Shown here piece by piece: positions 45,478-60,897 of a DNA stretch of 64,000 nucleotides; the stretch's first letter is position 1; each line of letters begins with the position of its first letter. The notes beneath the pieces were generated by a model, which saw only the letters and a program-made list of their open reading frames with translations, did not search any database and had not been told where the DNA came from. This DNA is from Pseudomonas sp. CFBP13508 (lineage in GTDB: Bacteria > Pseudomonadota > Gammaproteobacteria > Pseudomonadales > Pseudomonadaceae): contig NZ_QFZZ01000001.1 in NCBI RefSeq assembly GCF_005233515.1, forward strand, positions 401,320 through 465,319, read 5' to 3'. A program made the position numbers and the translations under genes.

Positions 45478-48048
45478 CTACTTCGCGCTCGAAGAGCAAG
45501 CCAACCGATATTGCTCGTAGTTCAAACCCTCGACCTTTTCCGGCAGCTTGTATGGCACGGGGCAGCTTTTGCCCTGCCACTTGATGGTGATGACACCGTG
45601 ATCTTTGGTCACCAGCGCCAGGGCCTTGCCTGTCGGATCTGACAATGCCAGTTGTTTGCCGTCGCTATCCAACAGCACCGCGCCGAATGGAATCGGCTGG
45701 CCATTGGCATCGTACAGTTCAAACTGGACGCGTCTGCCTTTGCTGCCTTCGAAGCGTGCAAGAACCACCGAACCTCGTCTTGGCACCAGTTGCTGGGTGG
45801 CATTGTCCAGCTCGATCTCACCGCCCAGGTTGCGCGTGTCCAGCGTTACCCAGTTGACGCGATACGGTTGCGCGTTAGGCAGAACCGCATAGCCGTTCAG
45901 GCCGGTTTTCACACCCGAATAGCTGCTGACTTCGACGCCCGACATGCCGGGGACTTCCACCAGGCCGAACGTTTCACCGACGGTCTGGCCCATATTGATG
46001 CCGCCGGCATGAGCCACGATCGATCCGGCCGCACTCAGGTTCTGCGACTCATAGCCGCTGCCTCGGCTGTAGCCAAAGCCCATATCGCCCATCGACGTAC
46101 GGGTACTCAGACTGAGCGAGCCAGAGCGCTCGCCCTGGACGCTGCGCCCGGTCTGCACGGAATAGTAGGTGTCGCTGTCCTCGGTCAGATAACCATTGAT
46201 CCCGGCTTGCGTGCTGGTACCGGCGTTCTGATGGTTACTGGAAACGTAGGCACGCGGTGCGCGTGGTGTCGATCCGAGCGGGAACGATATTGAAACGCTT
46301 AATTGCGTATCGTTGCTGGTGTCACCGCGTGCGCCGAATTCCTGGGTTTTGCTCAGGCTGATGTTGTAGTTCAGGTCGCGCCAATTGTTGTTGTAGCCGG
46401 CGGAAAAGCTGCGCGAGCCACCGCGATCCCAATAGCGCTGGTCACTGGCATTCAAATAAAGCGAGCCGAACTGGCGCGCTTCGCCAAGGGTCTGGTTGAC
46501 CGTGAGATCTGTACGGGTTTTGGCATTGCCCGCGCGCCGCGTAGCGCCAGCGCTGGTGTCCTGCACATGGTCGGTCAGCGTGCGGTAACCCTCGGTCGAA
46601 TAACGATAGGCGGCGAGAGTGAAGCTGGTATCGGTACCGGTGAAGGTCTTTGCATAGAGCGCGCGGACACTGCTGCCCTGGGTAGTTTTGCCGAATGCCT
46701 TGCTGGACGATTGCGTAACGTCCAGGGACATCGCGCCAATCGAGGTGTTCTTCGCCGCACCGATGGACAGCGCCTTGAAGCCGTTGCTCGCCTGAATGCC
46801 GGCAATGCCCGTCAGATTGCTGGTCAAGCCGTAGGCGAAAGTGCCCCCAAGGAAAGCCGGTTTGTCATAGCCCTCGCTGTTGTTGTTGAACTTGCCGCTC
46901 GACAGGCTGTACTTCAGTTGCCCCTCACGCACCATCGTCGGCAGGGCGGAGAACGCCTGCCGGGTTACCTTGCGCCGACCATCCGCTTCGACAATGGTGA
47001 TCTCCAGGTCACCGTTGGAGCCCGATGGGTAGATATCACTGATCTCGAACGGACCCGGCGGTACATTGGTGGTGTAGAGAATGTAGTTGTCCTGGCGGAC
47101 CTCGATCTTCGCATTGGTTTCCGCCACGCCACGAATGATCGGTGCATAACCGCGCTCACTGTCCGCACGCATGCCTTCATCAGAAGCGATCTTGACGCCT
47201 TGGTAGCGCACGCTGTCGAACAGATCCGAGTCGGAAAAGATTTCACCCGCGCTCAGTTGCCCCTTGATCGCCGTGAGGTCGCGCTGGATGAACGTGCGGT
47301 TGCTGACAAAACGGTTGGGCCGGCCGGTGGAGCTGCTCAGGTTGGATTCGTTGCGCAGACGCCAGGCACCAAAGTTGATGCCGTTGCGCAGCCCCAGGTT
47401 ATTGGAGATTTGCGTGGTGTAATCGGTTTTGCTGCGGGTGCTGCTCAGCTGGTAGTTGATGAAACCGGCGGCCACACCTTGGTCCCAAAGCTCTGGATCT
47501 ACATAGCCGCGCATGCCACGCGCCATGGCGACCTGCGGCACGCTGATATTGAGGCGCAGGCGGTTGGCATCGAAATTGAGACTCGCTTGCTCGATCATTG
47601 CAGGCAGGTCGTAGTGATCGGCAGGGTGTTGCTCGTCAACAAGACCCTGCTCACGCAGTTTGCGCATGTCCACACCCAGCTGCTGCAACAGTTCCAGGGT
47701 GATGCGTGGCTCGACTTTGCCGTTGACCGGGTTGGCCGCGAAATCGATATCGCGACGCCCGACCAGCGTGCCGTTGCTGAACACGTCGACGCGGTATTGG
47801 CCTGGCAAGACGCTGTTGGCATTCAGCAACGGTTGCAGATCGACCGCCGATGAACCTTCAAGGAACAGCGTATTGAAAGATTCACTCGCCACTGCGGCCG
47901 GGGCTTCGGCGCCCACGGCGAATCCGCAAATGGCCATGTTGATAGCAAAGCACAATGGATGCAGGCAGCCCAACGCCGCTTTGTTTTTCTGGCGCGCAAC
48001 ATGATGCATAACACAACTTTCAGATGTGTGGTGTTGGGAGGAAAACAT
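45478..48048 (-). CDS. Fimbrial usher (FimD/PapC family)
   Basis: An 856-residue outer-membrane usher. A signal sequence within the first 47 residues, then the N-terminal chaperone-binding domain (FNTLFLEGSSAVDL), the 24-strand barrel with the plug (around DIYPSGSNGDLEITIVEADG), and C-terminal domains with a cysteine pair near the end (GKSCPVPYKLPE...LACSSS). AAGG lies 8 nt before ATG 48048; an in-frame ATG at 48009 is an alternative. It assembles and secretes the pilus encoded by this island. Last gene of pilin-chaperone-usher. Confidence 0.92.
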   Translation of the reverse strand: MFSSQHHTSESCVMHHVARQKNKAALGCLHPLCFAINMAICGFAVGAEAPAAVASESFNTLFLEGSSAVDLQPLLNANSVLPGQYRVDVFSNGTLVGRRDIDFAANPVNGKVEPRITLELLQQLGVDMRKLREQGLVDEQHPADHYDLPAMIEQASLNFDANRLRLNISVPQVAMARGMRGYVDPELWDQGVAAGFINYQLSSTRSKTDYTTQISNNLGLRNGINFGAWRLRNESNLSSSTGRPNRFVSNRTFIQRDLTAIKGQLSAGEIFSDSDLFDSVRYQGVKIASDEGMRADSERGYAPIIRGVAETNAKIEVRQDNYILYTTNVPPGPFEISDIYPSGSNGDLEITIVEADGRRKVTRQAFSALPTMVREGQLKYSLSSGKFNNNSEGYDKPAFLGGTFAYGLTSNLTGIAGIQASNGFKALSIGAAKNTSIGAMSLDVTQSSSKAFGKTTQGSSVRALYAKTFTGTDTSFTLAAYRYSTEGYRTLTDHVQDTSAGATRRAGNAKTRTDLTVNQTLGEARQFGSLYLNASDQRYWDRGGSRSFSAGYNNNWRDLNYNISLSKTQEFGARGDTSNDTQLSVSISFPLGSTPRAPRAYVSSNHQNAGTSTQAGINGYLTEDSDTYYSVQTGRSVQGERSGSLSLSTRTSMGDMGFGYSRGSGYESQNLSAAGSIVAHAGGINMGQTVGETFGLVEVPGMSGVEVSSYSGVKTGLNGYAVLPNAQPYRVNWVTLDTRNLGGEIELDNATQQLVPRRGSVVLARFEGSKGRRVQFELYDANGQPIPFGAVLLDSDGKQLALSDPTGKALALVTKDHGVITIKWQGKSCPVPYKLPEKVEGLNYEQYRLACSSSAK

Positions 48049-48134
48049 GCAATTTGCCTTATCAGTCCGTGTTGCTTCAACCGGAGTCCGGAACTTTTGA
48101 ATAGCTTGTAAGCTGGCAGGGTGGGGCGGGGGAT

Positions 48135-48884
48135 TTACTGGGCGGAGGCATCTTTCACGCGCTCGGCATGGCTTTCGGCAACGCTTAGTGGTGCATCGAA
48201 TCGTTGTTGTGCGCCGTAATCGTTAATTGCTGAAAAACTCAAATGCGAAGTGCCAGCTGGCAGATCTTTCAGATTGAATGAGCGAACTTCCCCTGGAACG
48301 ATCATTGTCGAATCAATTACCAATTCCGCTTTTTTCCCTGCAACGACTTTCAGATCCGCCAGCGACACGTGGTAGTTGCTTTGGTTTTTTACTTTCAGCA
48401 CCGACTTGCCAGCCTGAGTGACCAATTGCCATGCAAGTTGCTCCGGTGCCTTTGCGGCATCACCGGTGAGTCCGTCCGGGCGGAAGAAGACCTTGATACG
48501 CTGACGTACCGCCAATTGCAGCGTGTTGACATCGGCAGCACTGGCCTGGGGGATTTCCTGCACGTTCAGCCATACCACCGACTCCTTGTCCGCAGGCATG
48601 CCGCGGCCTTCATAAAGAATCCTCAGTAATTGCTGTTGATTGGGCTCAAGTTTGGCCAGTGGTGGAGTAACTGCGAAAGGCGGTGCGCTGCCAGCCGTGT
48701 CGCCGGCATCCAGCCACGATTGCGCCAGAATGGTTTGTCCGCCGTTGCGCACGGTGACATTCGCCTCTTTGTGCGCGCCATCGAAGATAATCCGGGTGGA
48801 GCTCAAGGAGATGCTGGCGAATGCCGAGTGCGTCATCAACACCCCGGCAAGCCCCAGGCAAAGCGGAAAGTAGCGACTTAACAT
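48135..48884 (-). CDS. Periplasmic fimbrial chaperone (PapD family)
   Basis: A 249-residue protein with signal peptide (about 1-24, ending AFA) and two Ig-like domains. SLSSTRIIFDGAHKEANVTV, AQSWLDAGD, PLAKLEPNQQQLLRI and VWLNVQEIPQ are PapD-family hallmarks; the basic residues of the subunit-binding cleft (Arg in SSTRIIF, Lys in the RIKVFFRP strand) are present. ATG 48884 is chosen because GGTGA precedes it by 6 nt. It folds pilin subunits and hands them to the usher. Confidence 0.93.
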   Translation of the reverse strand: MLSRYFPLCLGLAGVLMTHSAFASISLSSTRIIFDGAHKEANVTVRNGGQTILAQSWLDAGDTAGSAPPFAVTPPLAKLEPNQQQLLRILYEGRGMPADKESVVWLNVQEIPQASAADVNTLQLAVRQRIKVFFRPDGLTGDAAKAPEQLAWQLVTQAGKSVLKVKNQSNYHVSLADLKVVAGKKAELVIDSTMIVPGEVRSFNLKDLPAGTSHLSFSAINDYGAQQRFDAPLSVAESHAERVKDASAQ

Positions 48885-48952
48885 AGATTTCACCGATTAA
48901 TCTGGTCGGGAAGGACGAGGCACAGCGGCCCCGTCCAGGTATTGCGGGCTGC

Positions 48953-49555
48953 TTATTCGTATTCGAGAACGAACGGCAGAGTGGCGTTACCGGTACCGGC
49001 AGTAGCGGTGGTCTTGTCGCCGGTGGTGACGTAAGCGGCTGCGAACGACAGGGTGCCGTCACCGCCTGTGGTTGCGTCGCCAGTCAGGTTGGTCTGCACT
49101 TTGGCAGTGGCTTCGGAGCTCAGGTCGATCAACTGGCCATTGCTGTCCAGCAGTGCGATACCAACGCCTTTGGCCGCGTCTGCACCCTGTAGCTTGAGAA
49201 CTTTCTTGCCATCAACCAGGCCCGAACCGCCGTTTACGGTTGGTTTGAACAGCATCGAAACCTTGGTGCCAGCGTTGCAGTTCACTTTCAGGTTGAAATC
49301 GTTGGCGGCCACACGACCGGCGCCCGGAGCGGAGTCGGTGCCCATGTCTTTGATCGACACGCTGCCCATGTCCACGGCAATCATCTTGTCGTTACCCAAG
49401 GCGCCATCTACCGAGCAAGCGTCGTTATTGATAACGCCGGTGAAGCTGATTTGACCGCTGCCGCCCTTGACAGCTTTGGCGGCTTCTTCAGCCACTGCAC
49501 CAGTGGAGGCAGCCAGTACGGAAAGAGTGAGTACTGCGAAAGCGAACTTTTTCAT
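48953..49555 (-). CDS. Major fimbrial subunit (type 1 pilin family)
   Basis: A 200-residue pilin with signal peptide (about 1-22, ending AVA). Cys47 and Cys93 form the conserved disulphide. The C-terminal strand TLPFVLEYE accepts the donor strand, with a penultimate Tyr. An extra Lys/Gly-rich segment (EEAAKAVKGGSG) lies just after the signal peptide and would be the donor strand. First gene of the three-gene operon. Two RcsB-like boxes lie upstream. Confidence 0.92.
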   Translation of the reverse strand: MKKFAFAVLTLSVLAASTGAVAEEAAKAVKGGSGQISFTGVINNDACSVDGALGNDKMIAVDMGSVSIKDMGTDSAPGAGRVAANDFNLKVNCNAGTKVSMLFKPTVNGGSGLVDGKKVLKLQGADAAKGVGIALLDSNGQLIDLSSEATAKVQTNLTGDATTGGDGTLSFAAAYVTTGDKTTATAGTGNATLPFVLEYE

Positions 49556-49631
49556 GTTTATATCCGAAGTTATTGTGAAGTGCTGCATTGAAATGCCAGG
49601 CCATATTAGGTGTGCGGTGGTGGCGGGTCTT

Positions 49632-49645
49632 TGGGATTTGTCTTA
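49632..49645 (-). promoter_or_regulatory. RcsB-like box upstream of pilin gene
   Basis: TGGGATTTGTCTTA fits TRAGA-N4-TCTYA with one mismatch in the left arm. Its centre lies 33 nt from the centre of a -10-like TAATAT (49603-49608, minus strand), which has no good -35. This spacing puts the box near -42, as for an activator touching RNA polymerase. Confidence 0.5.
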
Positions 49646-49722
49646 AAGCGATAAAGGTGCGAGCCAGTCAGTAATATGGCCGTGGCGTATTTATATTTGC
49701 GGTAATGGTGCAGCGAACCAAA

Positions 49723-49736
49723 TGAGACAATTCTCA
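49723..49736. promoter_or_regulatory. RcsB-like box in divergent pilin/rocR-like region
   Basis: TGAGACAATTCTCA matches TRAGA-N4-TCTYA completely. On the minus strand it contains GAGAATTGTCT, an 11-mer found again at 56163 and 59408. It could act on either divergent gene. Confidence 0.6.
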
Positions 49737-49818
49737 AAGTCGTGCGGTCTTTGTCTGGTTAGTATTCGCGGATGCAGAAATTCTCAGTCAACGCAAAGTT
49801 TGTGAGCGGGCGTCCTGC

Positions 49819-49848
49819 TTGAAAGATTATTCAGACTTTCGCTATTAA
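49819..49848 (+). promoter_or_regulatory. Candidate sigma-70 promoter of the EAL-regulator gene
   Basis: TTGAAA (49819-49824), an 18-nt spacer and TATTAA (49843-49848) end 27 nt before the GTG start at 49876. Confidence 0.45.
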
Positions 49849-49875
49849 CGACTGATAGAAAGAGGTTCCAGGTTT

Positions 49876-51096
49876 GTGAACACGCTTCGTATATTGGTCT
49901 TGGAAGATCACGCCTTTCAGCGCACGGCGGCAGTCAGTGCGCTTAATAGTCTGGGGTACAAAAATATCTTTCAGGCGGCTGACGGCAAGGATGCGCTGGC
50001 TGTGATATCCCAGGCTGGAGGCGTGGACGTTGCATTGTGTGACTTGAGCATGGCCGGGATGGATGGTTTGACGTTCTTGCGCCTGGCGAGAGAAGCCGGT
50101 TTGATTCGTGCAGTGATCATCTGCAGTTCATTGCCTGAAGACTTGTTGCGCACGGTTGACCGGATTGTCACGTTGCAGGGGCTGGAATTGCTTGGCAGTG
50201 TCGGCAAGCCTCTGATGGTCGATGTGCTGGGGCCATTGTTGGCGCGTTATCGGCCGCACACTCCGGGCGATGCCAAAGTGGTGGAAAGTCATCTCGATCA
50301 GCCTTCGGAGAACGAAGTGCTCGAAGCGATACGCCGTCAGGAATTTCGCGCCTATTTCCAGCCCAAGTTTCATCTGCGCAGTGGTGAGGTGGATGGCGCC
50401 GAGGTGCTGGTGCGATGGCAGAGCCCCAGTCGCGGCTTGCTCTCGCCAGGCATGTTCTTGCCGACGATCGAGCGTTGCGGTCTGCTCGATGAGATGTTTT
50501 TCAGCCTGCTCACGCAAGGCTTGAGTCTGCAGCGCTTCGTCCAGTCTCACGGCAAGCCGTTCAAGCTGGCGTTCAATCTCGACGTGACGCAGATGGCCAA
50601 TCCGAATCTTGTCGACCGGATCAAGGCGCTGTTGCGCATCCATGGCGCCTCGCCAGCTGGGCTCATTTTCGAGCTCACGGAAACCGGCCTGCTGCAGATG
50701 CCCGAGATCAGCATGGAAAACATGGTGCGTCTGCGCATGCTCGGCTTCAGTCTGGCAATCGATGATTTCGGTGTCGGCTATTCTTCACTTGAGCGGCTGT
50801 GCCAGATGCCGTTCAACGAAATCAAACTCGACGCCGGCTTCGTGCAGAATTTCCATCAGGCGCGCTACAGCGCGGTCATCCACGGGGCGTTGGCCCTGGC
50901 GCGGGAATTGGACATGCGCGTGGTGGCAGAGGGTATTGAAACCGCAGATCAGGTTCAGCATCTGGCGCGGCTTGGTTGTCAGTGGGGGCAGGGCTTCTTC
51001 TATGCTCGCCCGATGAATTGGGCGCATTTGGTCGACTGGCGTTTCGAGGGTCAGAAGTCATCCTGGCGCCGCGCAATAGGCACATCCGATCGTTGA
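49876..51096 (+). CDS. Response regulator with EAL phosphodiesterase domain (RocR/PvrR-like)
   Basis: A 406-residue protein starting at GTG 49876. Receiver domain (about 1-120) with phospho-acceptor Asp56 (CDLSMAGMDG), then an EAL domain (about 148-395). The EAL motif reads EVL at Glu176. FNLDVTQ, FELTET, DDFGVGYSS, KLDAGF and EGIET keep the metal and general-base residues, so c-di-GMP hydrolysis is likely. In P. aeruginosa the counterpart lowers c-di-GMP and opposes the LuxR-type regulator in fimbrial control. It is divergent from the pilin operon and upstream of the phosphorelay genes. Confidence 0.92.
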   Translation: MNTLRILVLEDHAFQRTAAVSALNSLGYKNIFQAADGKDALAVISQAGGVDVALCDLSMAGMDGLTFLRLAREAGLIRAVIICSSLPEDLLRTVDRIVTLQGLELLGSVGKPLMVDVLGPLLARYRPHTPGDAKVVESHLDQPSENEVLEAIRRQEFRAYFQPKFHLRSGEVDGAEVLVRWQSPSRGLLSPGMFLPTIERCGLLDEMFFSLLTQGLSLQRFVQSHGKPFKLAFNLDVTQMANPNLVDRIKALLRIHGASPAGLIFELTETGLLQMPEISMENMVRLRMLGFSLAIDDFGVGYSSLERLCQMPFNEIKLDAGFVQNFHQARYSAVIHGALALARELDMRVVAEGIETADQVQHLARLGCQWGQGFFYARPMNWAHLVDWRFEGQKSSWRRAIGTSDR

Positions 51097-51269
51097 TGCA
51101 AGCGGCATTCTGACTTTTGGGACAAAGCCCTATTTCGTCACGCCTTTAAAACACTCATCATGTGCCGAGAAATCAATCAGATGCACCTGAATGCTTCGGT
51201 GATGCCCGGGATTTGCTGCGGTTGCCAAGTGCTGATGGTCCTCCAACACTCTTCATCATGGAGCTGTTC

Positions 51270-51977
51270 ATGCATTGGTCAGTCGTGAATCCGTTACGCG
51301 TTGCCATCCTTGATGATCACTCGCTCATACGTCTGGCGATGAAGTCGCGGCTGACGCGCGAAGCCGAGTTCAGTGTCGTAGGTGTGTATGGCAGCAGCGC
51401 GCAGTTGCTCGCCGGATTGCGCGAAATCGACATCGACCTGCTGATACTCGATTACAAACTGCACGATGGGGAGCTGGACGGGCTCAATCTGATCCGCCTG
51501 CTGCGCAAGCAATATCCGGGCATGCGCATCCTCGTCTCTTCCTCAGAAGAGCGCCCGGCAGTTGTGAACATGGCGGTCGGGGCGGGCGTCAGTGGATTCT
51601 TCGGCAAGTCACAGTCGGTCGATGACCTGATTACTGCCATTCGCTGTGCAGCGTCCGGCCAGTTGTACCTGTCTCCAACCATGGCCTTTGAGCTTGACGT
51701 GTTGCCAGCATCGATCGAAGAGCCCGCCGGTGCCAAAGACGAGAGCGCGGCGCACAGCGACGATTTCCTCAGTAATCCTCTGCTGTCACCTAAAGAGAAA
51801 GAAGTCTTGCGCTGTTGTCTCGAGGGGATGGGGGTGACGCAGATTGCCTTGAAGTTCTCGCGCAGTCGCAAAACCATCAGTGGGCAAAAACAGGCCGCTT
51901 TCAAAAAGCTTGGCATTCGTGGTGACGCAGAGCTGTTCAAGTTGCAGCACAGCCTGACAGCCGACAACCAGGGATAA
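51270..51977 (+). CDS. LuxR-type response regulator, RcsB/RocA1-like
   Basis: A 235-residue protein. Receiver domain with Asp61 (LILDYKLHDG), then a LuxR helix-turn-helix from about residue 170. The recognition region VTQIALKFSRSRKTISGQKQ is strikingly close to that of E. coli RcsB (VTEIAKKLNRSIKTISSQKK). ATG 51270 has GGAG 6 nt upstream; an ATG 12 nt earlier is possible. The kinase gene follows after 7 nt, so they form an operon. Expected to activate the fimbrial promoters; RcsB-like boxes occur in these intergenic regions. Confidence 0.9.
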   Translation: MHWSVVNPLRVAILDDHSLIRLAMKSRLTREAEFSVVGVYGSSAQLLAGLREIDIDLLILDYKLHDGELDGLNLIRLLRKQYPGMRILVSSSEERPAVVNMAVGAGVSGFFGKSQSVDDLITAIRCAASGQLYLSPTMAFELDVLPASIEEPAGAKDESAAHSDDFLSNPLLSPKEKEVLRCCLEGMGVTQIALKFSRSRKTISGQKQAAFKKLGIRGDAELFKLQHSLTADNQG

Positions 51978-51984
51978 CACGCTT

Positions 51985-54900
51985 ATGTTTCATCTGTTGC
52001 GCGGTGTTTTGCTAATCAGTGTGCTTTTCGTATTCAGTAGTGGTGTGTTATTGGCAGCAGAGCCGCGCACCTTGCAGGTGTTCGGTCGCTCGGACTGCAA
52101 GGAGCTGCAAGTCGATCTGGCCAATGAAGACTGGAGTTGGCTGCGGCAAAAGCGCAGCCTGATATTGGGTTCTGCGCTTCCGGATTTCCCGCCTTATGTC
52201 ATGACCGCCAGCGGTACGCGCTATGAGGGGATTGCCGCCGATATCGCCTGCATTATCGGTCAGGCACTGCATGTTGAGATTACCGTCAAGGCTTACCCTG
52301 ACCGGCGTGACGCCATGGCCGCACTTGAGCGCGGTGACATCGACATGTTGGGCAGTTCCAACAGTTTCGAATTGATCGATGGCCTCGTCACGCTCAGCAA
52401 ACCTTATGTCGAAGACGTGCCGGCGATGTTCATGCGCGGCGATGATCGACGACCGATGCCGGCCAATCTGGCCGGTTTGCGTATTGCGGTTGCCGACGAT
52501 TACCTGCCTTCCAGTCAATTACACGCGTTATACCCCAACGCCGAATTCGTGCTTTTTCCATCGAACGAGTTGGCACTGGCTGCGCTGGCTTTTGGCAAGG
52601 TCGACCTGTTTCTCGGCGATACGGTGTCGAGCAATTACCTGATCAACCTCAACTACTTCAACTATGTGCGGCTGCACTCTTTCGTCAAAACCCAAACCAG
52701 CGGTTTCAGCTTTGCCTTGCGCCGGGGCAACGACCAATTGCTGCGTCTGATCGATTCGACCCTCGAGTCGCTGGGTGATGCGAAGATTGCCGAAATTACC
52801 AAGCGCTGGTCGGGCGGCGGCGGGGCGCTGACGCCCAAACGCATTGACCTGACACCCGGCGAAGCACGTTGGCTTGAGCTGCATCCGGTCGCGCGGTTCG
52901 TGATCAATGACGATCAGGCACCGTTTGCATTCTTTGATGGTGACGGCAACTTCGGCGGGATCGGCGCTGATCTGCTCGAGCTCATCCAGCGGCGTACCGG
53001 CTTGCAGATCAATGTCGAGCGCACCGACAGCTTTTCCAGTCTGAGCACGCGTCTGCTGGATGGCAGCGCGGATATTTCTCTGCTGACACCAACGGTCTCG
53101 CGGGAAGTCGGCATGCGTTTCACTCATCCGTTCCTTGCCAGCCCCTTTGTGATCGTCACCACCAAGGACGCAGGCGCGCCTTCAAGCCTGCAGGAGCTGC
53201 GCGGCAAGCGCGTCGCAGTGCCCGAAAGTTCGGCTGAGCGTGAGCTGCTCAAGGACTACCCCGACATCGAGATCGTTGATAACGAAACAGTTCTGGGCGC
53301 CTTGGCTGACGTGAAGGACGGTCGAGCGGACGCGATGATTACCACGTTGCACAGTGCGCGCTACTACATCGCCCACATCTACAGCGACAGCTTGCGTATC
53401 TCCAACATCGTCGGCATGAACAAAGGCTTCCTCGCTTTCGCCGCGCGGCGTGCCGATACCGAACTGGTCAGCATTCTGAACAAGGCGCTGCTGAGCATTC
53501 CGCCGGATGAGCTGGACGTAATTCTCAACAGGTGGCGTCCCATTGCAGCGTTTTCGGGGTTGTCGTGGCGCGATTACAAGGCGCTGATCTACCAGATCAG
53601 CGCTGGCGCGTTCCTGATTATCCTGGGATCGCTGGCGTGGAATTTCTATATTCGCCGGCAGATCCGCGAACGCAGCCGGGCAGAGCGCTTGCTGGGCGAT
53701 CAGTTGAAGTTCATGGGCGCGTTGATCAACGGCACGCCGCATCCCATCTACGTACGTGATCGTGAAGGTCGGCTTGTCACCTGCAATAATAATTATCTGC
53801 AAACATTTGGCCTGCTGGAAAAGGACGTGATCGGCAAGACCGTGCTCGAAAGCGGCAAGCGCAATCGTCAGGAGGCGTTGCAATTTCACGACGACTACCT
53901 GCGCGTCATCGAGCAGGACGAACCTTACGAGGTGGATCGCACGCTGCATGTCGGTGATACGCGGCTGATCATTTACCACTGGATCCAGCCGTATCACGAC
54001 ACGGCGGGTGAAGTCAGAGGCGTGATCTGCGGCTGGATCGATATCAGCGAACGCCGTGAACTCATCGAGGAGTTGCGTTCGGCGAAAGAGCTGGCTGACG
54101 AGTCGAGCCGCGCCAAAACCACGTTCCTGGCGACCATGAGCCACGAAATCCGTACGCCGATGAGCGCCGTGATCGGCATGCTCGAACTTACCCTCAAGCG
54201 TGCCGAGCAGGGACACTTCGATCGGCCGGCGATTGAAGTGGCATACGACTCGGCAAAAGGTCTGCTGGAACTGATCGGCGATATCCTCGATGTGGTACGC
54301 ATCGAATCGGGCCATGTCAGCCTTTCGCCGAAACGTGCCAACCTGCGCGAATTGGTCGAATCCGTGGCGCGGGTGTTCGACGGCTTGGCCAGGCAGAAGA
54401 GTCTGGTGCTGAAGCTCGACATCGACGCCACTGTCGGCTGTGACGTATTGGTTGATCCGATGCGCTTCCAGCAGGTGCTCTCGAACCTGGTGGGCAACGC
54501 GATCAAGTTTACCGACACCGGTCATGTCAGCGTCTCGATTCGCGGCCAACGTCTCGCTGACGAACGCTTACAGGTCGACCTCAAGGTCGAGGACACCGGC
54601 ATCGGCATTTCCAGCGCCGATCTGCAGAATCTGTTCCAGCCGTTTTCCCAAGCCAATCATGGTCCCTCCAGCAGAGGCGGCACCGGTCTGGGACTGGCGA
54701 TCTCCCGTTCATTGTGCGAATTGATGGGCGGGCGGCTGAACATTACCAGTACGCTTGGCAAAGGCACCTGCCTGGAAGTGTCGCTCTTCTTCAATATTCT
54801 CAGCCCGCTTGGCGGCAAAGTGCTGCCTGTTTCGGTTGTTCAGGACAAACCGGTACCGACACTCAGGATTCTCGTAGTCGATGACCAGAGCGCCAACCGC

Positions 54901-55617
54901 CTGCTGTTGACGCAGCAGCTGAGTTTCCTTGGCCAGGCGGTGCGTGATGCCGCCGACGGTGCCCAGGCATTGGCGCTGTGGCGCTCGGAGCCGTTCGACA
55001 TTGTGATCACGGACTGCAACATGCCGGTCATGAACGGCTATGAGCTGGCCCGCACCATTCGCCAGGACGAACGCGAAAGTGGTGGATCGCCGTGCATCGT
55101 ACTGGGCTTCACGGCCAACGCGCAGCCGGAAGAAAAAGTGAAATGCCGGGAGGCCGGGATGGATGATTGCCTGTTCAAACCGATCAGTCTCGGCACCTTG
55201 TCGATCATGCTTGCAGGCTGGGAAAAAAATGTTGAAACCCAGCCATTTGAAAGCCCGCCTGCGGCGACTATCAAGGAGCTGGGTTCGATTCGCGAGCGTC
55301 TTGACGAGCTCACCGGGGGCGATCTCGACATGATGAAAGAACTTCTGCGCGAGGCGCTGTCGAGTTGCGAAAAGGATCTGGAGGAGTTGCATTCGCTAAT
55401 ACCCGAAAGCGATCCCGGGCTGTTGGCTGACCTGGCGCACCGCATCAAGGGGGCGGCGCGCATTGTTGCCGAGCATCAGGTCATTGAGGCGTGTAACGAG
55501 CTTGAGGCCGAGTGCGAGGCGCCTGTTATCGATCCGCTGGACCTCAATCGCAGTGCATTGAAGCTGGAGCATGCACAGGCTGATCTGATCAAGAAAATCA
55601 AACGGATCGAGCTGTAA
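51985..55617 (+). CDS. BvgS/RocS1-type hybrid sensor kinase
   Basis: A 1210-residue protein. Order: signal peptide (about 1-24); two periplasmic SBP_bac_3 (Venus flytrap) domains (about 45-275 and 285-510); one membrane helix (about 534-554); PAS domain (about 570-685); HisKA with His720 in MSHEIRTPM; HATPase with NLVGNAIKFT, DTGIGIS and GGTGLGLAIS; receiver with Asp1010 (ITDCNMPVMNG); and Hpt with His1152 (AHRIKGAARIV). This His-Asp-His chain passes phosphate to the RcsB-like regulator encoded 7 nt upstream, and perhaps to the EAL regulator. The periplasmic signal is unknown. Confidence 0.95.
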   Translation: MFHLLRGVLLISVLFVFSSGVLLAAEPRTLQVFGRSDCKELQVDLANEDWSWLRQKRSLILGSALPDFPPYVMTASGTRYEGIAADIACIIGQALHVEITVKAYPDRRDAMAALERGDIDMLGSSNSFELIDGLVTLSKPYVEDVPAMFMRGDDRRPMPANLAGLRIAVADDYLPSSQLHALYPNAEFVLFPSNELALAALAFGKVDLFLGDTVSSNYLINLNYFNYVRLHSFVKTQTSGFSFALRRGNDQLLRLIDSTLESLGDAKIAEITKRWSGGGGALTPKRIDLTPGEARWLELHPVARFVINDDQAPFAFFDGDGNFGGIGADLLELIQRRTGLQINVERTDSFSSLSTRLLDGSADISLLTPTVSREVGMRFTHPFLASPFVIVTTKDAGAPSSLQELRGKRVAVPESSAERELLKDYPDIEIVDNETVLGALADVKDGRADAMITTLHSARYYIAHIYSDSLRISNIVGMNKGFLAFAARRADTELVSILNKALLSIPPDELDVILNRWRPIAAFSGLSWRDYKALIYQISAGAFLIILGSLAWNFYIRRQIRERSRAERLLGDQLKFMGALINGTPHPIYVRDREGRLVTCNNNYLQTFGLLEKDVIGKTVLESGKRNRQEALQFHDDYLRVIEQDEPYEVDRTLHVGDTRLIIYHWIQPYHDTAGEVRGVICGWIDISERRELIEELRSAKELADESSRAKTTFLATMSHEIRTPMSAVIGMLELTLKRAEQGHFDRPAIEVAYDSAKGLLELIGDILDVVRIESGHVSLSPKRANLRELVESVARVFDGLARQKSLVLKLDIDATVGCDVLVDPMRFQQVLSNLVGNAIKFTDTGHVSVSIRGQRLADERLQVDLKVEDTGIGISSADLQNLFQPFSQANHGPSSRGGTGLGLAISRSLCELMGGRLNITSTLGKGTCLEVSLFFNILSPLGGKVLPVSVVQDKPVPTLRILVVDDQSANRLLLTQQLSFLGQAVRDAADGAQALALWRSEPFDIVITDCNMPVMNGYELARTIRQDERESGGSPCIVLGFTANAQPEEKVKCREAGMDDCLFKPISLGTLSIMLAGWEKNVETQPFESPPAATIKELGSIRERLDELTGGDLDMMKELLREALSSCEKDLEELHSLIPESDPGLLADLAHRIKGAARIVAEHQVIEACNELEAECEAPVIDPLDLNRSALKLEHAQADLIKKIKRIEL

Positions 55618-55719
55618 ACGTATCGGCTCATGACCATCCGACTGGCCTTGCATTGAAGCTGACGTTAAAGATCATTTTGCAGCGGGCGATACCTTGGTTA
55701 ATAACCATGGAGTTTCGCG

Positions 55720-56097
55720 ATGATCATTCGACGTCCTTTATTGATTGCCTGCCTTTGCCTGCTCGGTTTTGACACCGTCAGCGCAGCCCAGTCTGCGCCG
55801 GTCAGCGGAGTGATTCGCTTCAGCGGTCGAATTGTCGAGGCAAGTTGCATTGCGAGTGGCGCCAGCCATTCTTCTGTCGAGTTGCTTGATTGCCCCCAGG
55901 CAAACACCGGGCAGATTTTTACCGTGAACAACGTCAGTGCGGCAGGGCGAGGTGAGTCGCGCCAGCAGGTGTTTGTGAAGGTGATTGCCGATACTCATGA
56001 GCAGGACGATTATTACGACCAGCGCTTGCTGCTCACGGACAACAAGGGTCACCAGATAACGAGCGGTAATTACGTAGTGACGATGACGCTGCCTTGA
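55720..56097 (+). CDS. Minor fimbrial subunit-like protein
   Basis: A 125-residue protein with signal peptide (about 1-22) and a short pilin domain: VIRFSGRIVEASCIAS with the first Cys, LLDCPQA with the second only 14-15 residues later, and a C-terminal SGNYVVTMTLP strand. It is smaller than a normal pilin and the cysteine spacing is unusual, so it may be a terminator, tip or adaptor subunit. GGAG lies 7 nt before the ATG. It is 102 nt after the kinase stop and may be co-transcribed with it. Confidence 0.75.
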   Translation: MIIRRPLLIACLCLLGFDTVSAAQSAPVSGVIRFSGRIVEASCIASGASHSSVELLDCPQANTGQIFTVNNVSAAGRGESRQQVFVKVIADTHEQDDYYDQRLLLTDNKGHQITSGNYVVTMTLP

Positions 56098-56119
56098 TGG
56101 CTTGGAAAGAATGAGTCTG

Positions 56120-56155
56120 CGCCCCTTGTTTCAAGGTTACTGACAAAAAGGGGCG
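56120..56155 (+). terminator. Hairpin after minor pilin
   Basis: CGCCCCTT (56120-56127) pairs with AAGGGGCG (56148-56155) over a 20-nt loop, 22 nt past the stop. Only a weak T run follows (TTAAT), so termination may be partial. Confidence 0.45.
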
Positions 56156-56162
56156 TTAATAA

Positions 56163-56176
56163 TGAGAATTGTCTGG
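56163..56176. promoter_or_regulatory. RcsB-like box (left arm strong)
   Basis: TGAGAATTGTCTGG: the left arm TGAGA and TCT of the right arm fit, the last two bases do not. It shares the 13-mer ATGAGAATTGTCT, and then GTT-x-GC, with the site at 59408. Confidence 0.45.
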
Positions 56177-56327
56177 TTCGCACAGAACCGTCCCGCGCTT
56201 CTGGCTCGTCGCGACTCCCCTGCGTTGCAAAATCCCTCCTTCAACACTTTCTGAGCCAGACCATGCGCCGATCGCGTGGGCTGTCGTCAAGGTGTGGCTT
56301 TTTATCATCTATCCCTGCGTTCATTTT

Positions 56328-56341
56328 TGAGACAAGTCTCA
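56328..56341 (+). promoter_or_regulatory. RcsB-like box, perfect palindrome
   Basis: TGAGACAAGTCTCA is a perfect dyad fitting TRAGA-N4-TCTYA. The centre of a -10-like TATTTT (56365-56370) lies 33 nt away and the receiver-like gene starts at 56406, so the box sits near -42. Confidence 0.6.
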
Positions 56342-56405
56342 TATCAGGCAGGTTGGCCCTTGGTTATTTTCTTGAAAGGAAGAATGGAGCTGCCAAAGGT
56401 GTCCG

Positions 56406-56867
56406 ATGTTTCTTGAAAATAACCGCAGTAGATCCTTGCGGATCCTGATCGCCGATAGCGATGTGCGCAGAGGTCAGTCAATCGAACAGCAGTTCAACAA
56501 GCTGGGCTGTCTCAGCGTCTTGAACGTTTGCACTTATCGTGACCTGAAAATACTGACGTATTACTGCCCTCAACGGTTGAGCCTGGTCGTCGTCAATGCT
56601 GAGTTGCTCAACGAAATGGCGATGGATCCGCTCGACTTTTTCGGGGAAAACCCGCTGATTCGTCATCTGCTGATTTTCAATCCCAACGATGATCACCAGT
56701 GGTCGAAGACCTTCTTCAACCCGCATCCGCAACGCTGGATGCGCCTGGTCTCGAAAATCAATCTGCCGCGACTGGCAGATTTTCTGATGCTGGCCGACCC
56801 GGCGCTCAAGGAAATTGCGGAGCCGGCCTCGACCAACTCCACACTCTCTCCGTGCGCCAACCGCTAG
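56406..56867 (+). CDS. Receiver-like protein lacking the phospho-acceptor Asp
   Basis: A 153-residue single-domain protein. The first strand and acidic pair of a receiver are kept (LRILIADSD, Asp17 and Asp19), but the expected phospho-acceptor strand reads LVVVNAEL with Asn64, so it should not be phosphorylated in the usual way. The later half (HLLIFNPNDDHQWSKTFF) keeps the strand order but not the usual Lys. No output domain. It could bind the kinase or a regulator without phosphate. It precedes the chemoreceptor gene by 114 nt. Confidence 0.65.
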   Translation: MFLENNRSRSLRILIADSDVRRGQSIEQQFNKLGCLSVLNVCTYRDLKILTYYCPQRLSLVVVNAELLNEMAMDPLDFFGENPLIRHLLIFNPNDDHQWSKTFFNPHPQRWMRLVSKINLPRLADFLMLADPALKEIAEPASTNSTLSPCANR

Positions 56868-56981
56868 CTACCGCACCTTCCCGCGTTGATCCAGGTATGC
56901 GCCGAGGCGCTATACCGCAGCGCCGCTCTGCTGCCCACTCGTTTACCCCATTGTCTTGAATACACTCTAAGGTAAGGCATC

Positions 56982-58610
56982 ATGCTGCTTCGTAAACTCA
57001 ATCTCGCGCCGCGTTCGGCGCTGTGTTTCGGCTTGTTCTGTCTCATGATTATCGCGATCGGATTGATCGCTCTGCAGCAAGTCGACTTGCTCAACAAGGC
57101 AGAAACGTACGTCGAGACGACGATCGTGCCGAGTATCAAGCTGCTCGGCCAACTCGATCGCGAGTTCGTCGAAATCAAGGGCAACAACGCTCGCTTGCGC
57201 AATCCCATTGAAACGAGTGAGCGCAAAGCGCAGGCCCTGATTGACATCCAGCAGTCGCGTCAGATGATCAAAAATCATCAGCGTGCGCTCATTGACCTGC
57301 TGGCGACTGACGCCGGGCGCGAGGCGTTCGAGGAGTTTGCCAAAGCACAGAAGGTCAACGATCAGGCGCAAGATCAATACCTTGAAACAGTGGCGAACGG
57401 GCAGCTTGAAGCGGCCATTGCGCTGTCCAGGAATCAGATGCGTGCGGCGTCGGATGGCGTACAGGTCGCGCTCAAGAAGTTGATTGCTCTCAACGAGATA
57501 GAAGCTTATGAGGCGGGCAAGCAGGCCGACAATGTCTATGAGCACACGCTGTTGATCGTCAGTGTGTTCATTCTCATCGCGATCGGTGCTTCGTTGGCCC
57601 TGGCCGTGTTGTATACCCGCAGCCTGACGGTACCCATTGCAGGCTCGCTAAGGGTGGCCGAATGCATCGCCGCCAATGATCTGAGCGAAACCATTGCGCT
57701 GGATGGCTCCGATGAGGCGGCGCAAATGCTGTCGTCATTGGCGGCGATGCAAACCAGTCTGCGAGATGCCTTGATCATGATCCGTGATTCGTCCACGCAG
57801 TTGGCCGAGACCTCGGAGGTCATGCACGGCGTCACTGAAGATATCTCGCGTATCACTCAACGTCAGAGCCATGAAATCGAAATGGCCGCCACCGCCGTCA
57901 CTGAAATGAGTGCAGCGGTGGAGCAGGTTGCAGACAACGCCGCATCGACCTCGCAGCTGACGTCGGAATCAAGCGCGGCAGCCATTGCCGGTCGAAGTCA
58001 GGTCAGCGACACGGTAGCCGCAATCAACCTGATGGTGTCCAGCGTGCACAGCACCTCGGCTGAGGTGCAGGCGCTATCGACCATGGCGAGCGATATCAGC
58101 AGCGTGCTGGACGTTATCCGAGAGGTTGCCGAACAAACCAATCTGCTTGCCTTGAACGCAGCGATCGAAGCGGCGCGGGCGGGGGAGGCGGGTCGCGGTT
58201 TTGCCGTGGTTGCCGATGAGGTGAGAGGGCTGGCGCAGCGTACTCAGAAGTCGACCGAGGACATCGAGTCCATGGTCAGCTCCATTCAGTCGGGCACCAG
58301 CCGCGCAGTTTCCTCCATGAGCCACACCCGCGCTCAGGCCGAGAGAACGCTCGAAATGGCCAATATCGCCGGCGAAGTGCTGACCGACATCACTGGCTCG
58401 CTGAATCTCATCAACGAGCGAAACCTGCTGATGGCAACCGCTGCAGAAGAGCAGGCTCAGGTTGCGCGTGAAGTGGATCGCAGCCTGATCAGCATTCGCG
58501 ACCTTTCGTGTGAAACCGCAGAGGGATCGAAACAGACCGCAGTCGCATCGGCGGAGCTGTCGCAATTGGCGGCGTCGCTGAACAAATTGACCAAGGAATT
58601 CAAACTTTAA
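56982..58610 (+). CDS. Methyl-accepting chemotaxis protein
   Basis: A 542-residue receptor. TM1 (about 13-33), a periplasmic four-helix-bundle ligand domain (about 34-187), TM2 (about 189-211), a HAMP domain (about 212-265) and a long cytoplasmic signalling helix pair. The hairpin tip is [21 protein letters not shown] with [15 protein letters not shown], which contacts CheA/CheW. No C-terminal CheR-binding pentapeptide. The ligand is unknown. Its place inside a fimbrial island suggests a link between attachment and taxis or a Wsp-like pathway. Confidence 0.93.
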
Positions 58611-58621
58611 TCAGTAAACGT

Positions 58622-58646
58622 AAAGCCCTGGCTACCAGGGCTTTTT
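58622..58646. terminator. Bidirectional terminator
   Basis: AAAGCCCTGG (58622-58631) pairs with CCAGGGCTTT (58635-58644) with a 3-nt loop; T runs follow on both strands. It separates the chemoreceptor gene from the convergent coiled-coil gene. Confidence 0.88.
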
Positions 58647-58648
58647 GA

Positions 58649-59233
58649 TCAGCGCTCGATCGGCGCAGCAAAGTCTTGCGCATGGGGTGCAGAGTCAGTT
58701 TGTGCTGGCGATGCGGTTTGTGCTGTCAACTGCTCAATGCAGCTGGCGAGTTGTTTTTCATAGCTTTCAAGTACCGCTTCGGCTTCAGCTTCGCGCTCAT
58801 CACGCAGGCGGAAGAAATCGTCGCGATTGAGTTGGTCCGCAACAAGTCGGATGTTTTGCTCGATGATCGCGCACAGTGAATCTTCATCCTCTAACGCCGC
58901 GCTGGACAGGGCTGCCTGTCGGTTGTTTTCGAGTTCGGTTTTTGCGTGCTCAGCGGCCTTCGCCTGTTCCTTTGCGCTAAGCAGGTCGGCTTCCAAAACC
59001 TGTTTCTGTTCCGCCAGGCGCTTCAGTTCTGCGCTCATCGACTGGATTGCATCGGCGCGCTGGGTGAGTTGGACCTCCTGTTGTTGCACCACAGCCTTCA
59101 GTGGAAACAGTTCATTGAGTTGGTAGCCGGCGACCACAGTCATGGCGATCAGTGCCAGCGCAAGAATGGTCAGGCAGTAGATGGCGGCGTTGCTCTGGGG
59201 TTTTGAGCTATTGAGGGTATCGAGGGCTCTCAC
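58649..59233 (-). CDS. Single-pass membrane coiled-coil protein, unknown function
   Basis: A 194-residue protein from a GTG start (59233) with AGGAG 10 nt upstream. One membrane helix (about 19-39, IYCLTILALALIAMTVVAG) is followed by a long heptad-rich coiled coil (about 45-110, QQEVQLTQRADAIQSMSAEL onward) and a charged C-terminal part with two cysteines and a Pro/Ala/Thr tail. No family recognised. It stands between the chemoreceptor and the adhesin, and a perfect RcsB-like palindrome lies 56-73 nt upstream, so it may belong to the fimbrial regulon. Confidence 0.7.
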   Translation of the reverse strand: MRALDTLNSSKPQSNAAIYCLTILALALIAMTVVAGYQLNELFPLKAVVQQQEVQLTQRADAIQSMSAELKRLAEQKQVLEADLLSAKEQAKAAEHAKTELENNRQAALSSAALEDEDSLCAIIEQNIRLVADQLNRDDFFRLRDEREAEAEAVLESYEKQLASCIEQLTAQTASPAQTDSAPHAQDFAAPIER

Positions 59234-59288
59234 GGAATCGTTTCTCCTATCAAGAGTAGACAGTGTAATAACCTCGATTCGCTGGGCC

Positions 59289-59306
59289 TTTAAGACGAGT
59301 CTTAAA
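59289..59306. promoter_or_regulatory. RcsB-like box, perfect 18-nt palindrome
   Basis: TTTAAGACGAGTCTTAAA is a perfect dyad whose core TAAGA-N4-TCTTA equals the arm pattern of the enterobacterial RcsAB box. It lies 56-73 nt upstream of the coiled-coil gene (minus strand), with a -10-like TATTAC on that strand at 59265-59270. Confidence 0.6.
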
Positions 59307-59407
59307 TTGTGCTCTATTTGCGTATGTCGATAACGGCTAACATTTGTTAACGAATTCGCAGAAGGCTTCTTGTTTAAACCGACTATCTAAAGTTTCTTGT
59401 GGGTCCA

Positions 59408-59426
59408 TGAGAATTGTCTTGTTTGC
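59408..59426 (+). promoter_or_regulatory. RcsB-like box upstream of adhesin
   Basis: TGAGAATTGTCTTGTTTGC repeats the core and following GTT-x-GC of the site at 56163. It lies 138-156 nt upstream of the adhesin start. Confidence 0.45.
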
Positions 59427-59563: not shown

Positions 59564-60520
59564 ATGAAGTTTTCCCATGTTTTAATTGTCGGTTTTTTGT
59601 ATTTACTGCCATTTAACGCAATGGCTGCAGTTTGCGAATTTTATCCCGACCATTCCAAGGGCAGTGTCAGGGTGGTTCTTCCAGCCACGATCTCGGTGCC
59701 TCGTGACACGCCCAACGGCACGGTTATCTATGAAAGCCCGATCGTGACCCTGGGCGCCATACCCAGCTCATTCAGGTGCTCTGCGGTACACAACGAAGGT
59801 GTACGCAATACTGTCGGCGTTACTCAGCCGGGCGCGGAGATTTTTCCTATCGGAAATACCGGAATCGGCTGGCAATGGGTCCGACCGCCATCGGGGAAAG
59901 CGTGGAAAGGCTTTCCAGGAACTACCGACACTGCTGGCGGTTGGGGTTGGAATGGTTCTGAGCACATCTTGCGTTTTGTAAAGACGGGAACTATTTCCGG
60001 CAGTGCGACGATACCCTCAGGCCAACTTGGGACCTTCGTCGCTGCAGAGATCGAGCCTCTGGCAATGAATACAAATGGCACGCGGATCGTCTCGCAGTCT
60101 TGTGAAACACCTGATGTGAAAGTGGATATGGGCAGCTACACCATGAGCGATTTTTTGCAGAACGGTGATTATGCGAAGGAGAAATACTTCTTTCTTGATA
60201 TGAAAAACTGTCCTCCCGGAATCAATAACTTCAGGTACTCCTTTTCGCCCACTGCGGGCAGCCCTGCATGGAGCGCTGATACCGGCGTGGTACACCTCAA
60301 CAGTAATTCCACTGCCAAAGGGCTGGCATTGCAAATGCGCTTCAGTGACAGGACGATACTCAAGCTGAACCAGAATTACATAATGAAAGCGCCAACATCG
60401 AGCGGCGGTAATGCATCCGTTTCCTTGCAAGCCCGCTTCGTGCGCATCGAGCCTTCCAATGCGCAAATGCGAGCGGGCGATGCCAATGCCGAAATTGCCT
60501 TTGTCGTCGAGTATCTATGA
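59564..60520 (+). CDS. Two-domain fimbrial adhesin-like protein
   Basis: A 318-residue secreted protein with signal peptide (about 1-21, ending AMA). The N-terminal half (about 22-180) is a distinct, Trp/Gly-rich domain (GNTGIGWQWVRPP, GGWGWNGSE), the likely receptor-binding lectin. The C-terminal half is a pilin domain with a Cys in SQSCETPDVKVDMGSY and one in MKNCPPGINNF, ending with the strand EIAFVVEYL. This is the layout of tip adhesins. ATG 59564 has AGAGA upstream and the signal peptide follows directly; the frame extends 50 codons upstream without coding character. It is well separated from the main fimbrial operon. Confidence 0.82.
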   Translation: MKFSHVLIVGFLYLLPFNAMAAVCEFYPDHSKGSVRVVLPATISVPRDTPNGTVIYESPIVTLGAIPSSFRCSAVHNEGVRNTVGVTQPGAEIFPIGNTGIGWQWVRPPSGKAWKGFPGTTDTAGGWGWNGSEHILRFVKTGTISGSATIPSGQLGTFVAAEIEPLAMNTNGTRIVSQSCETPDVKVDMGSYTMSDFLQNGDYAKEKYFFLDMKNCPPGINNFRYSFSPTAGSPAWSADTGVVHLNSNSTAKGLALQMRFSDRTILKLNQNYIMKAPTSSGGNASVSLQARFVRIEPSNAQMRAGDANAEIAFVVEYL

Positions 60521-60874
60521 GCCCAACAGCCTCTTCACCTCAGCCACAATCACCGCAATATCAAACGGCTTGGGCACTACCACATCAAACAGATCCGAGC
60601 GCTGCATGCCGATGTGCGCTTGCGCGCCACTCATGAGAATGATCGGCAAGTGTTTGACGGACGGCTGGGCACGCACGGCTTCGGCGAATTCGAGGCCGTC
60701 CATGACCGGCATCATGAAGTCAGTGATGACCAGGGCTGGACGTTCTCTTTCCAGCACTTCTAGAGCCTTCTTGCCATTGCTCGCGGTCACAGTCATGAAG
60801 CCCTCATCCTCAAGCGCAAAGCCAAGAATGTCAGCAATCAGATACTCGTCGTCGACTACCAGAATGGTGGTCAT
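60515..60874 (-). CDS. CheY-like single-domain response regulator
   Basis: A 119-residue receiver with Asp8/Asp9, phospho-acceptor Asp52 (ITDFMMPVMDG), the switch Ser in ILMSGAQ and Lys in VVPKPF. No output domain. It follows the KaiC-like gene by 23 nt on the same strand, so the two are likely co-transcribed. It overlaps the end of the convergent adhesin gene by 6 nt. Confidence 0.93.
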   Translation of the reverse strand: MTTILVVDDEYLIADILGFALEDEGFMTVTASNGKKALEVLERERPALVITDFMMPVMDGLEFAEAVRAQPSVKHLPIILMSGAQAHIGMQRSDLFDVVVPKPFDIAVIVAEVKRLLGS

Positions 60875-60897
60875 GTTATTTCAACCCGCTTGAAGAC

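Follow-up and report, generated by a model that had tools for sequence, protein, structure and literature searches.

Which protein reads a palindrome that recurs before the genes of a fimbrial island in Pseudomonas sp. CFBP13508, and what would its binding do there? The island lies in a 64,000-nt window of this genome (GCF_005233515.1, contig NZ_QFZZ01000001.1:401,320-465,319; positions below are those of the window), where chaperone-usher fimbrial genes stand with relatives of the Roc signalling proteins and a response regulator gene at 51270. The sequence-only reading of this DNA had described six sites of the form TRAGA-N4-TCTYA, assigned them to a RocA1-like protein using an RcsB-type site, and taken them as the DNA motif of a Roc-type fimbrial system. 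The best explanation, to which we give a probability of about 0.8, is that they are conserved RcsB-type boxes which would be bound by the RcsB-type regulator of the island and would activate the genes for the pilin, a REC-EAL protein (rocR), a pseudo-receiver and a coiled-coil protein.

Rarity and conservation of the boxes

All six sites are present at the positions reported, in three intergenic regions holding two sites each rather than in four regions. The pattern scored was TRAGA-N4-TCTYA, with the same pattern read backwards (reversed) as control. The sites at 49723, 56328 and 59291 are exact, the last being the core of an 18-nt palindrome (59289-59306); those at 49632 and 59408 have one mismatch and that at 56163 has two. 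The consensus of the island boxes is TTTRAGACWANTCTYAWA. Allowing at most one mismatch, the window holds 7 matches where 2.45 would be expected, and none of 100 shuffles reached 7; two of these matches, 49195 and 50490, fall within genes. The genome scan suggested by the sequence-only reading gave 4 exact sites in 5,998,808 bp, 3 of them in the island, within a stretch of 9.8 kb, and a single exact match to the reversed pattern. The chance of at least three of the four genome sites falling within 9.8 kb is P = 1.7e-8, a value that is somewhat optimistic because the stretch was picked for its sites. The stricter pattern TNAGACNANTCTNA is found exactly in the genome only at 49723, 56328 and 59291.

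The fourth exact site of the genome (L004:1501-1514, G000:C2:628693-628706; TAAGATATATCTTA) lies ~35 bp before a PadR-family gene, and its 14-mer recurs in several members of the genus among the matches listed. It was rejected as a regulon member on both grounds, which also make it probably the operator of another protein, likely the PadR-family regulator. The background of the pattern is 3.7 exact sites per genome against 2.3 for its reverse. Outside the islands, exact sites average 3.75 in eight close genomes, which equals the 3.74 of the 186 genomes that belong to neither the close nor the intermediate group; here the regulon seems to extend little beyond the island.

Ten orthologous islands were scanned (L044-L049, L094 of Pseudomonas sp. 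Choline-02u-1, L096 of P. fluorescens PS655, L117 of P. siliginis and L123 of P. crudilactis), the sites of the G311 island (L222) being left out of the counts. In this comparison of orthologous intergenic regions, also suggested beforehand, the boxes are kept while their flanks diverge. The rocR box is exact in 10/10 islands, the pseudo-receiver and coiled-coil boxes each in 9/10, and the pilin box is exact in 6/10 with one mismatch in 4/10; the adhesin box is weaker, with at most one mismatch in 6/10. In a seven-way alignment, 42 of 60 columns in the box arms are invariant against 239 of 868 in the flanks (P 6e-11). The same is seen against L049 alone (genome G035; 42/60 identical in arms, 337/868 in flanks, P 2e-6), the most diverged island, whose regulator and adhesin are 84% and 37% identical to those of the window; L049 retains both pilin-rocR boxes within an altered intergenic region. 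Elsewhere in G035 (L188) a relative of the coiled-coil gene (46%) is preceded by two boxes, one of them exact, and two copies of the adhesin in this genome each carry an exact box from which a -10-like element stands at 23. A second adhesin-like gene and usher-like fragments, with signs of duplication and decay, lie upstream of the main island of G035 (L188:11301-13440).

A fixed distance from box to -10-like element

At the pilin, rocR, pseudo-receiver and coiled-coil promoters, a -10-like hexamer begins exactly 23 bp after the box, towards the gene. When 21 boxes were read both ways, such a hexamer stood at 23 in 10 of 42 directions against 0.87 in mononucleotide shuffles, and 0 of 5000 shuffles reached 10 at any offset; with the four window promoters set aside, 6 of the offset-23 hexamers come from the other 17 boxes. 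A related box, TAAGAAYCGTCTTA, was matched 20 times among 199 genomes, in 18 of them, and its reverse not once. At 11 of these loci an RcsB-type gene stands on one side of the site and a pilin gene on the other, and TANNNT is found at 23 in 11/11, two of which (G098, G017) had been seen beforehand and several of which are orthologous promoters. Of the other nine matches, one stands by an RcsB relative of 35% identity, one precedes a different fimbrial operon and has CATCAT at 23, and one is near a partial adhesin-like gene; at the remaining six, one of them at a contig end, there was no such gene within the 1.5 kb examined. Loci whose regulator carries the recognition helix of the window regulator (RSRKTISGQK, 12 loci) gave a weaker peak at 23-25 (4, 3 and 3 of 60 box directions) at up to one mismatch. 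The fixed spacing at four island promoters and in 11/11 RcsB-cup loci is new here; among titles and abstract starts of the literature on pseudomonad RcsB sites, RcsB with type I secretion and RcsB-cup palindromes, we found nothing that deals with this island or with the 23-bp rule. In genome G187, three TAAGAATCGTCTTA copies lie within 22 kb (G187:C1:3528353, 3536685 and 3550442), the middle one between an RcsB-type gene and a pilin gene (L248); this looks like a second multi-promoter island.

With a -10-like element 23 bp away, the centre of the box would fall near -42.5, where class II activators are commonly found. A consensus sigma-70 promoter scan found none at the four proposed promoters (4 matches in the region against 4.2 expected), as expected of activator-dependent promoters. 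The regulon first claimed can be kept for the pilin, rocR, pseudo-receiver and coiled-coil genes, each with its -10-like element at the fixed distance; the membership of the adhesin rests on an imperfect box, as 59408 lacks a -10-like element at 23. The imperfect boxes 56163 and 59408 have ATGAGAATTGTCTKGTT in common outside the palindrome, and neither has the -10 geometry. They could form a class of asymmetric sites serving some separate purpose; that they are accessory or repressing sites is a guess.

The regulator might bind the boxes and yet repress, covering the -35 region and blocking RNA polymerase. For this speak the repression by RcsB from a box between -10 and -35 at gadA (in the accessible text of PMC5651002) and a chance-level promoter-like match at 56140-56169 that overlaps box 56163. 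We consider it unlikely, as the missing sigma-70 consensus is what activator-dependent promoters would show and as cupD is activated by RcsB in the accessible parts of PMC2696094 and PMC3842833.

The regulator and the travels of the box

The recognition helix of the 51270 product had been called very close to that of RcsB, and this is borne out: 12 of 18 residues are identical by our own count from the alignment, K180 included (RSRKTISGQKQ; E. coli RcsB, RSIKTISSQKK). Its receiver Asp aligns, in our reading, with the phosphorylatable Asp of RcsB. Over the whole protein the identity is 32%, with I179 replaced by Arg and S184 by Gly. The enterobacterial RcsAB box consensus has an AAT core, while the core of the island boxes is CAA-type. 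In the portions available of PMC5829831 and PMC5651002, respectively, the RcsB-DNA crystal structure has base contacts by K180 and S184, and RcsB homodimer sites lie upstream of -35; K180 may act in the island regulator as in RcsB. The TRAGA-N4-TCTYA arms are common to the island and the enterobacterial boxes. The next paralogue in the genome is 33% identical, so that the regulator has no second close copy there.

In a maximum-likelihood tree of 55 regulators (21 rows in no group, close copies left out), the family of the window regulator (22 rows) joins RcsB (4 rows) with support 100/97, under long-branch warnings, and 22 labelled RocA rows lie on one side of a well-supported branch, opposite the window regulator. 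A reading of the system as Roc proper, its boxes being the RocA1/2/3 motif, is very improbable. The Roc resemblance is real in the signalling genes, as the roc1 locus of P. aeruginosa PA7 (L080) encodes RocR and RocS at 44% and 47% identity to the window proteins, and RocA1-3 have a common consensus from DNA affinity purification sequencing whose letters are not printed in the text available of PMC12051241. However, the RocA of PA7 is 27% identical to the window regulator and has another helix (SNKTVSTYK), the PA7 locus holds no site even at one mismatch in the 21 kb scanned, and 22 RocA-only loci hold 2 exact sites (counted with L187 still in group B and L188, L223 and L224 in the 'rest'): one inside rocA (L098) and one ~1 kb before a pilin gene whose product is 58% identical to that of the window (L085). 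The RocA1 reading was rejected on the tree, the helix, the PA7 locus and the RocA-only loci. Of the original proposal, then, the RcsB-type site stood, with its RcsB-type helix and conserved, island-concentrated boxes, while its RocA1-like bearer and the Roc-type motif did not. As the regulator groups with RcsB and not RocA, the island is a hybrid of a Roc-type sensor and RocR-like phosphodiesterase with an RcsB-type output. Judged by sequence, the case is strong that the palindrome is the RcsB-type box of this hybrid; for the DNA-binding component, the name Roc is mistaken.

Loci outside the island, selected by their regulator, were grouped by recognition helix; L187, L188, L223 and L224, chosen for their sites, were left out. 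The 12 RSRKTISGQK loci hold 6 exact sites, in 5 loci, against 0.14 expected (P 8e-9). At up to one mismatch the count rises to 30 sites, with 6 for the reversed pattern, and 11/12 loci have at least one site. The 20 loci with other K180-bearing helices hold 5 exact sites against 0.25 expected (P 6e-6), four of the five coming from two related genomes. Where K180 is lost (SASTIS, SANTIS and STSTIS; 19 loci), 0 exact sites were found against 0.23 expected, and 4 near-matches against 11 in the reversed control. If residue 180 sets the use of the TRAGA arm among RcsB-type regulators, the regulator sequence would predict box and regulon. In the K180-less RcsB-type cup loci L173-L186, CTTCTCTATAG(AGAA) is common before many pilin genes, in some as a full palindrome; as a candidate operator of this subfamily it is an unproven lead.

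The box and the regulator also travel together across genomes. Across 199 genomes the pattern TRAGACAAGTCTYA was matched 14 times, and its reverse once. Of the 11 genomes whose regulator reaches 59% identity or more, 9 have the pattern, compared with 5 of the 188 others. It lies within 7 kb of the regulator gene in 8 of the 9; in the ninth (G098) it adjoins a second, broken copy, and the intact copy is 22 kb away. At two of the five other loci (L223, L224), which were inspected, no such regulator was seen. In 248 family genomes searched at E <= 1e-60, the regulator was found in 3, all of the genus of the window and one of them new (G537). In G058 (L052), G098 (L187) and G029 (L053), a regulator of this type, broken in G098, is divergent from a type I secretion operon of ABC transporter, HlyD-type adaptor and outer-membrane efflux genes (Pfam calls for L052, likeness of translations for L187 and L053), and a one-mismatch TGAGACAAGTCTCG box lies between the two. 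An exact TGAGACAAGTCTCA precedes a gene for a pseudo-receiver-like protein, 19-20% identical to that of the window, in G058 and G098. In G227 (L221), an independent fimbrial case, the regulator is 50% identical and an exact box begins 144 bp ahead of the pilin open reading frame. Among plasmids, where 5 of 17 records were examined, an exact site lies ~30 bp before an autotransporter gene in Pantoea (L190); two more Pantoea plasmids with one exact site each (L192, L193) have no match to the helix expression and stand in no helix class. This co-occurrence, seen from genome to genome and also where regulator-selected loci have different neighbours, makes it most doubtful that another protein of the cell binds the boxes and the neighbouring regulator is a coincidence, although the excess of 3.7 exact sites per genome over 2.3 for the reverse means that some sites elsewhere serve other proteins, L004 being the likely example. 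Chance or non-regulatory palindromes, suggested by the shortness of each single site, are highly improbable in view of the clustering, the conservation, the linkage to the regulator, the fixed distance to the -10-like element and the absence of an Rfam match.

Several observations weigh against the reading of the boxes as sites of the island regulator. No site was found even at one mismatch in one RSRKTISGQK locus (L216), and none at up to one mismatch within 3.7 kb of the 58% regulator of G537 (L229), which has no match to the helix expression. The 27 loci with 40-47% regulators (L160-L186) hold 0 exact sites, and the rule that every such relative uses the box was rejected. The S184 position is Gly in the window regulator. 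A Lys stands in the K180 column of RocA-type helices too, so that more than K180 must enter into the code, and the two exact sites of the RocA-only loci exceed the 0.28 expected (P 0.03). As to geometry, two of the six boxes (56163, 59408) are without it, the hexamer definition was set within this analysis, and the 23-bp rule arose from inspecting the window promoters by eye; the shuffle test guards against the choice of offset but not against all choice, because the tested boxes overlap those already inspected.

The island, its putative circuit and related systems

In the mechanism we propose, the adjacent sensor kinase would phosphorylate the 51270 regulator, which would then bind the box as a dimer centred near -42.5 and activate the pilin operon together with the REC-EAL, pseudo-receiver and coiled-coil genes. 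The REC-EAL protein may counteract this by degrading cyclic di-GMP, by analogy with RocR and PvrR. The features are collected in Table 1.

Table 1. Genes, boxes and -10-like elements of the island, in window positions
Feature	Positions	Strand	Remarks
Chaperone-usher fimbrial genes (pilin, chaperone, usher)	45478..49588	-	Pfam
-10-like TAATAT	49603..49608	-	23 bp from pilin box
RcsB-type box, pilin promoter	49632..49645	-	1 mismatch
RcsB-type box, rocR promoter	49723..49736	+	exact
-10-like TAGTAT	49760..49765	+	23 bp from rocR box
REC-EAL protein	49876..51096	+	45% identical to RocR (PDB 3sy8)
RcsB-type REC-LuxR response regulator	51270..51977	+	presumed box binder
Roc-type sensor kinase	51985..55617	+	two SBP domains, PAS, HisKA, HATPase, REC, Hpt; 47% to PA7 RocS
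Imperfect asymmetric box	56163..56176	+	2 mismatches; no -10-like element at 23
RcsB-type box, pseudo-receiver promoter	56328..56341	+	exact
-10-like TATTTT	56365..56370	+	23 bp from pseudo-receiver box
Pseudo-receiver	56406..56867	+	predicted receiver-like fold; Asn at phospho-Asp place
Coiled-coil protein (name from the sequence-only reading)	58649..59233	-	no Pfam family
-10-like TACACT	59262..59267	-	23 bp from coiled-coil box
RcsB-type box, coiled-coil gene promoter	59291..59304	-	exact; within 18-nt palindrome
Imperfect asymmetric box before adhesin	59408..59421	+	1 mismatch; no -10-like element at 23
Fimbrial adhesin	59564..60520	+	Pfam

The two SBP domains of the sensor are periplasmic binding domains. 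The island also encodes a small protein without family and a chemoreceptor-like gene, called by its look. For the pseudo-receiver, the predicted model has a mean predicted local distance difference test score (pLDDT) of 78.8 and almost all of its top PDB hits are receiver domains (E 0.0035-0.03, none below 0.001; template modelling score ~0.5), which makes the fold call fair, not strong; the Asn in place of the phospho-Asp is our own reading of the alignment. In the roc-type loci L090, L092, L093 and L095, two pseudo-receiver-like stretches, 28-40% identical to 56406-56867, flank rocR. Next to the adhesin, at 60515-62337 of the window, a single-domain receiver gene and a KaiC-family ATPase gene lie on the other strand and are kept in several orthologous islands.

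One of the nearest described systems is cupD-rcsBC-pvrRS of P. aeruginosa PA14, compared here by description and not by sequence from the accessible parts of PMC2696094, which gives the cupD gene order, and PMC3842833. An RcsB site before P. aeruginosa cupD is thus already published, and the island is a variant of that known kind. In both, the fimbrial operon has as neighbours a helix-turn-helix response regulator, an Hpt-bearing sensor and a REC-EAL regulator, and its first gene is preceded by an RcsB-type site of RcsAB-like form; at the PA14 cupD1 promoter this site lies at ~-75 and its GAA is essential. Further predicted RcsB sites in P. aeruginosa precede PA0034, PA3714 and PA1468, and the RcsB-induced genes with such sites include the receiver-like PA1468 (PMC3842833, same parts). 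In contrast to PA14, the island boxes have C at position 6 (GAC rather than GAA) and stand also before the rocR, pseudo-receiver and coiled-coil genes, and the island has one sensor where PA14 has two; all other CupD/RcsCB-PvrSR gene content is present in the island, the rest of the genome not having been searched for a second sensor. In the available part of PMC8041468, RcsB and CupD are named in the reference list alone. With Roc1 of P. aeruginosa (RocS1, RocR, RocA1) the island has in common RocR at 44-45%, RocS at 47% and the REC-EAL domain order, and differs in its RcsB-type output regulator of another clade and in the palindrome. The RcsB-cup loci (L230-L248) resemble the island in the box between RcsB-type gene and pilin gene, and in 9/11 the pilin is 57-62% identical to that of the window (L230 and L246 matched another pilin query best), but they carry truer RcsB proteins, that of L226 being 45% identical to E. 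coli RcsB, and the box TAAGAAYCGTCTTA.

We also consider, at somewhat less than even odds, a portable cassette in which one RcsB-type clade, an 18-bp box 23 bp from the -10 element and a box-driven pseudo-receiver would be plugged into different adhesion machines, namely fimbriae with a Roc-type sensor in the window and type I secretion in G058, G098 and G029, with residue 180 setting the use of the TRAGA arm. What the finding offers is a promoter code open to test, made up of box, 23 bp and -10 element, in a class of adhesion regulators that recurs in Pseudomonas; residue 180 of the recognition helix may in addition determine specificity. RcsB-type and RocA-type control could thereby be told apart in look-alike gene clusters, and the regulon would be readable from sequence.

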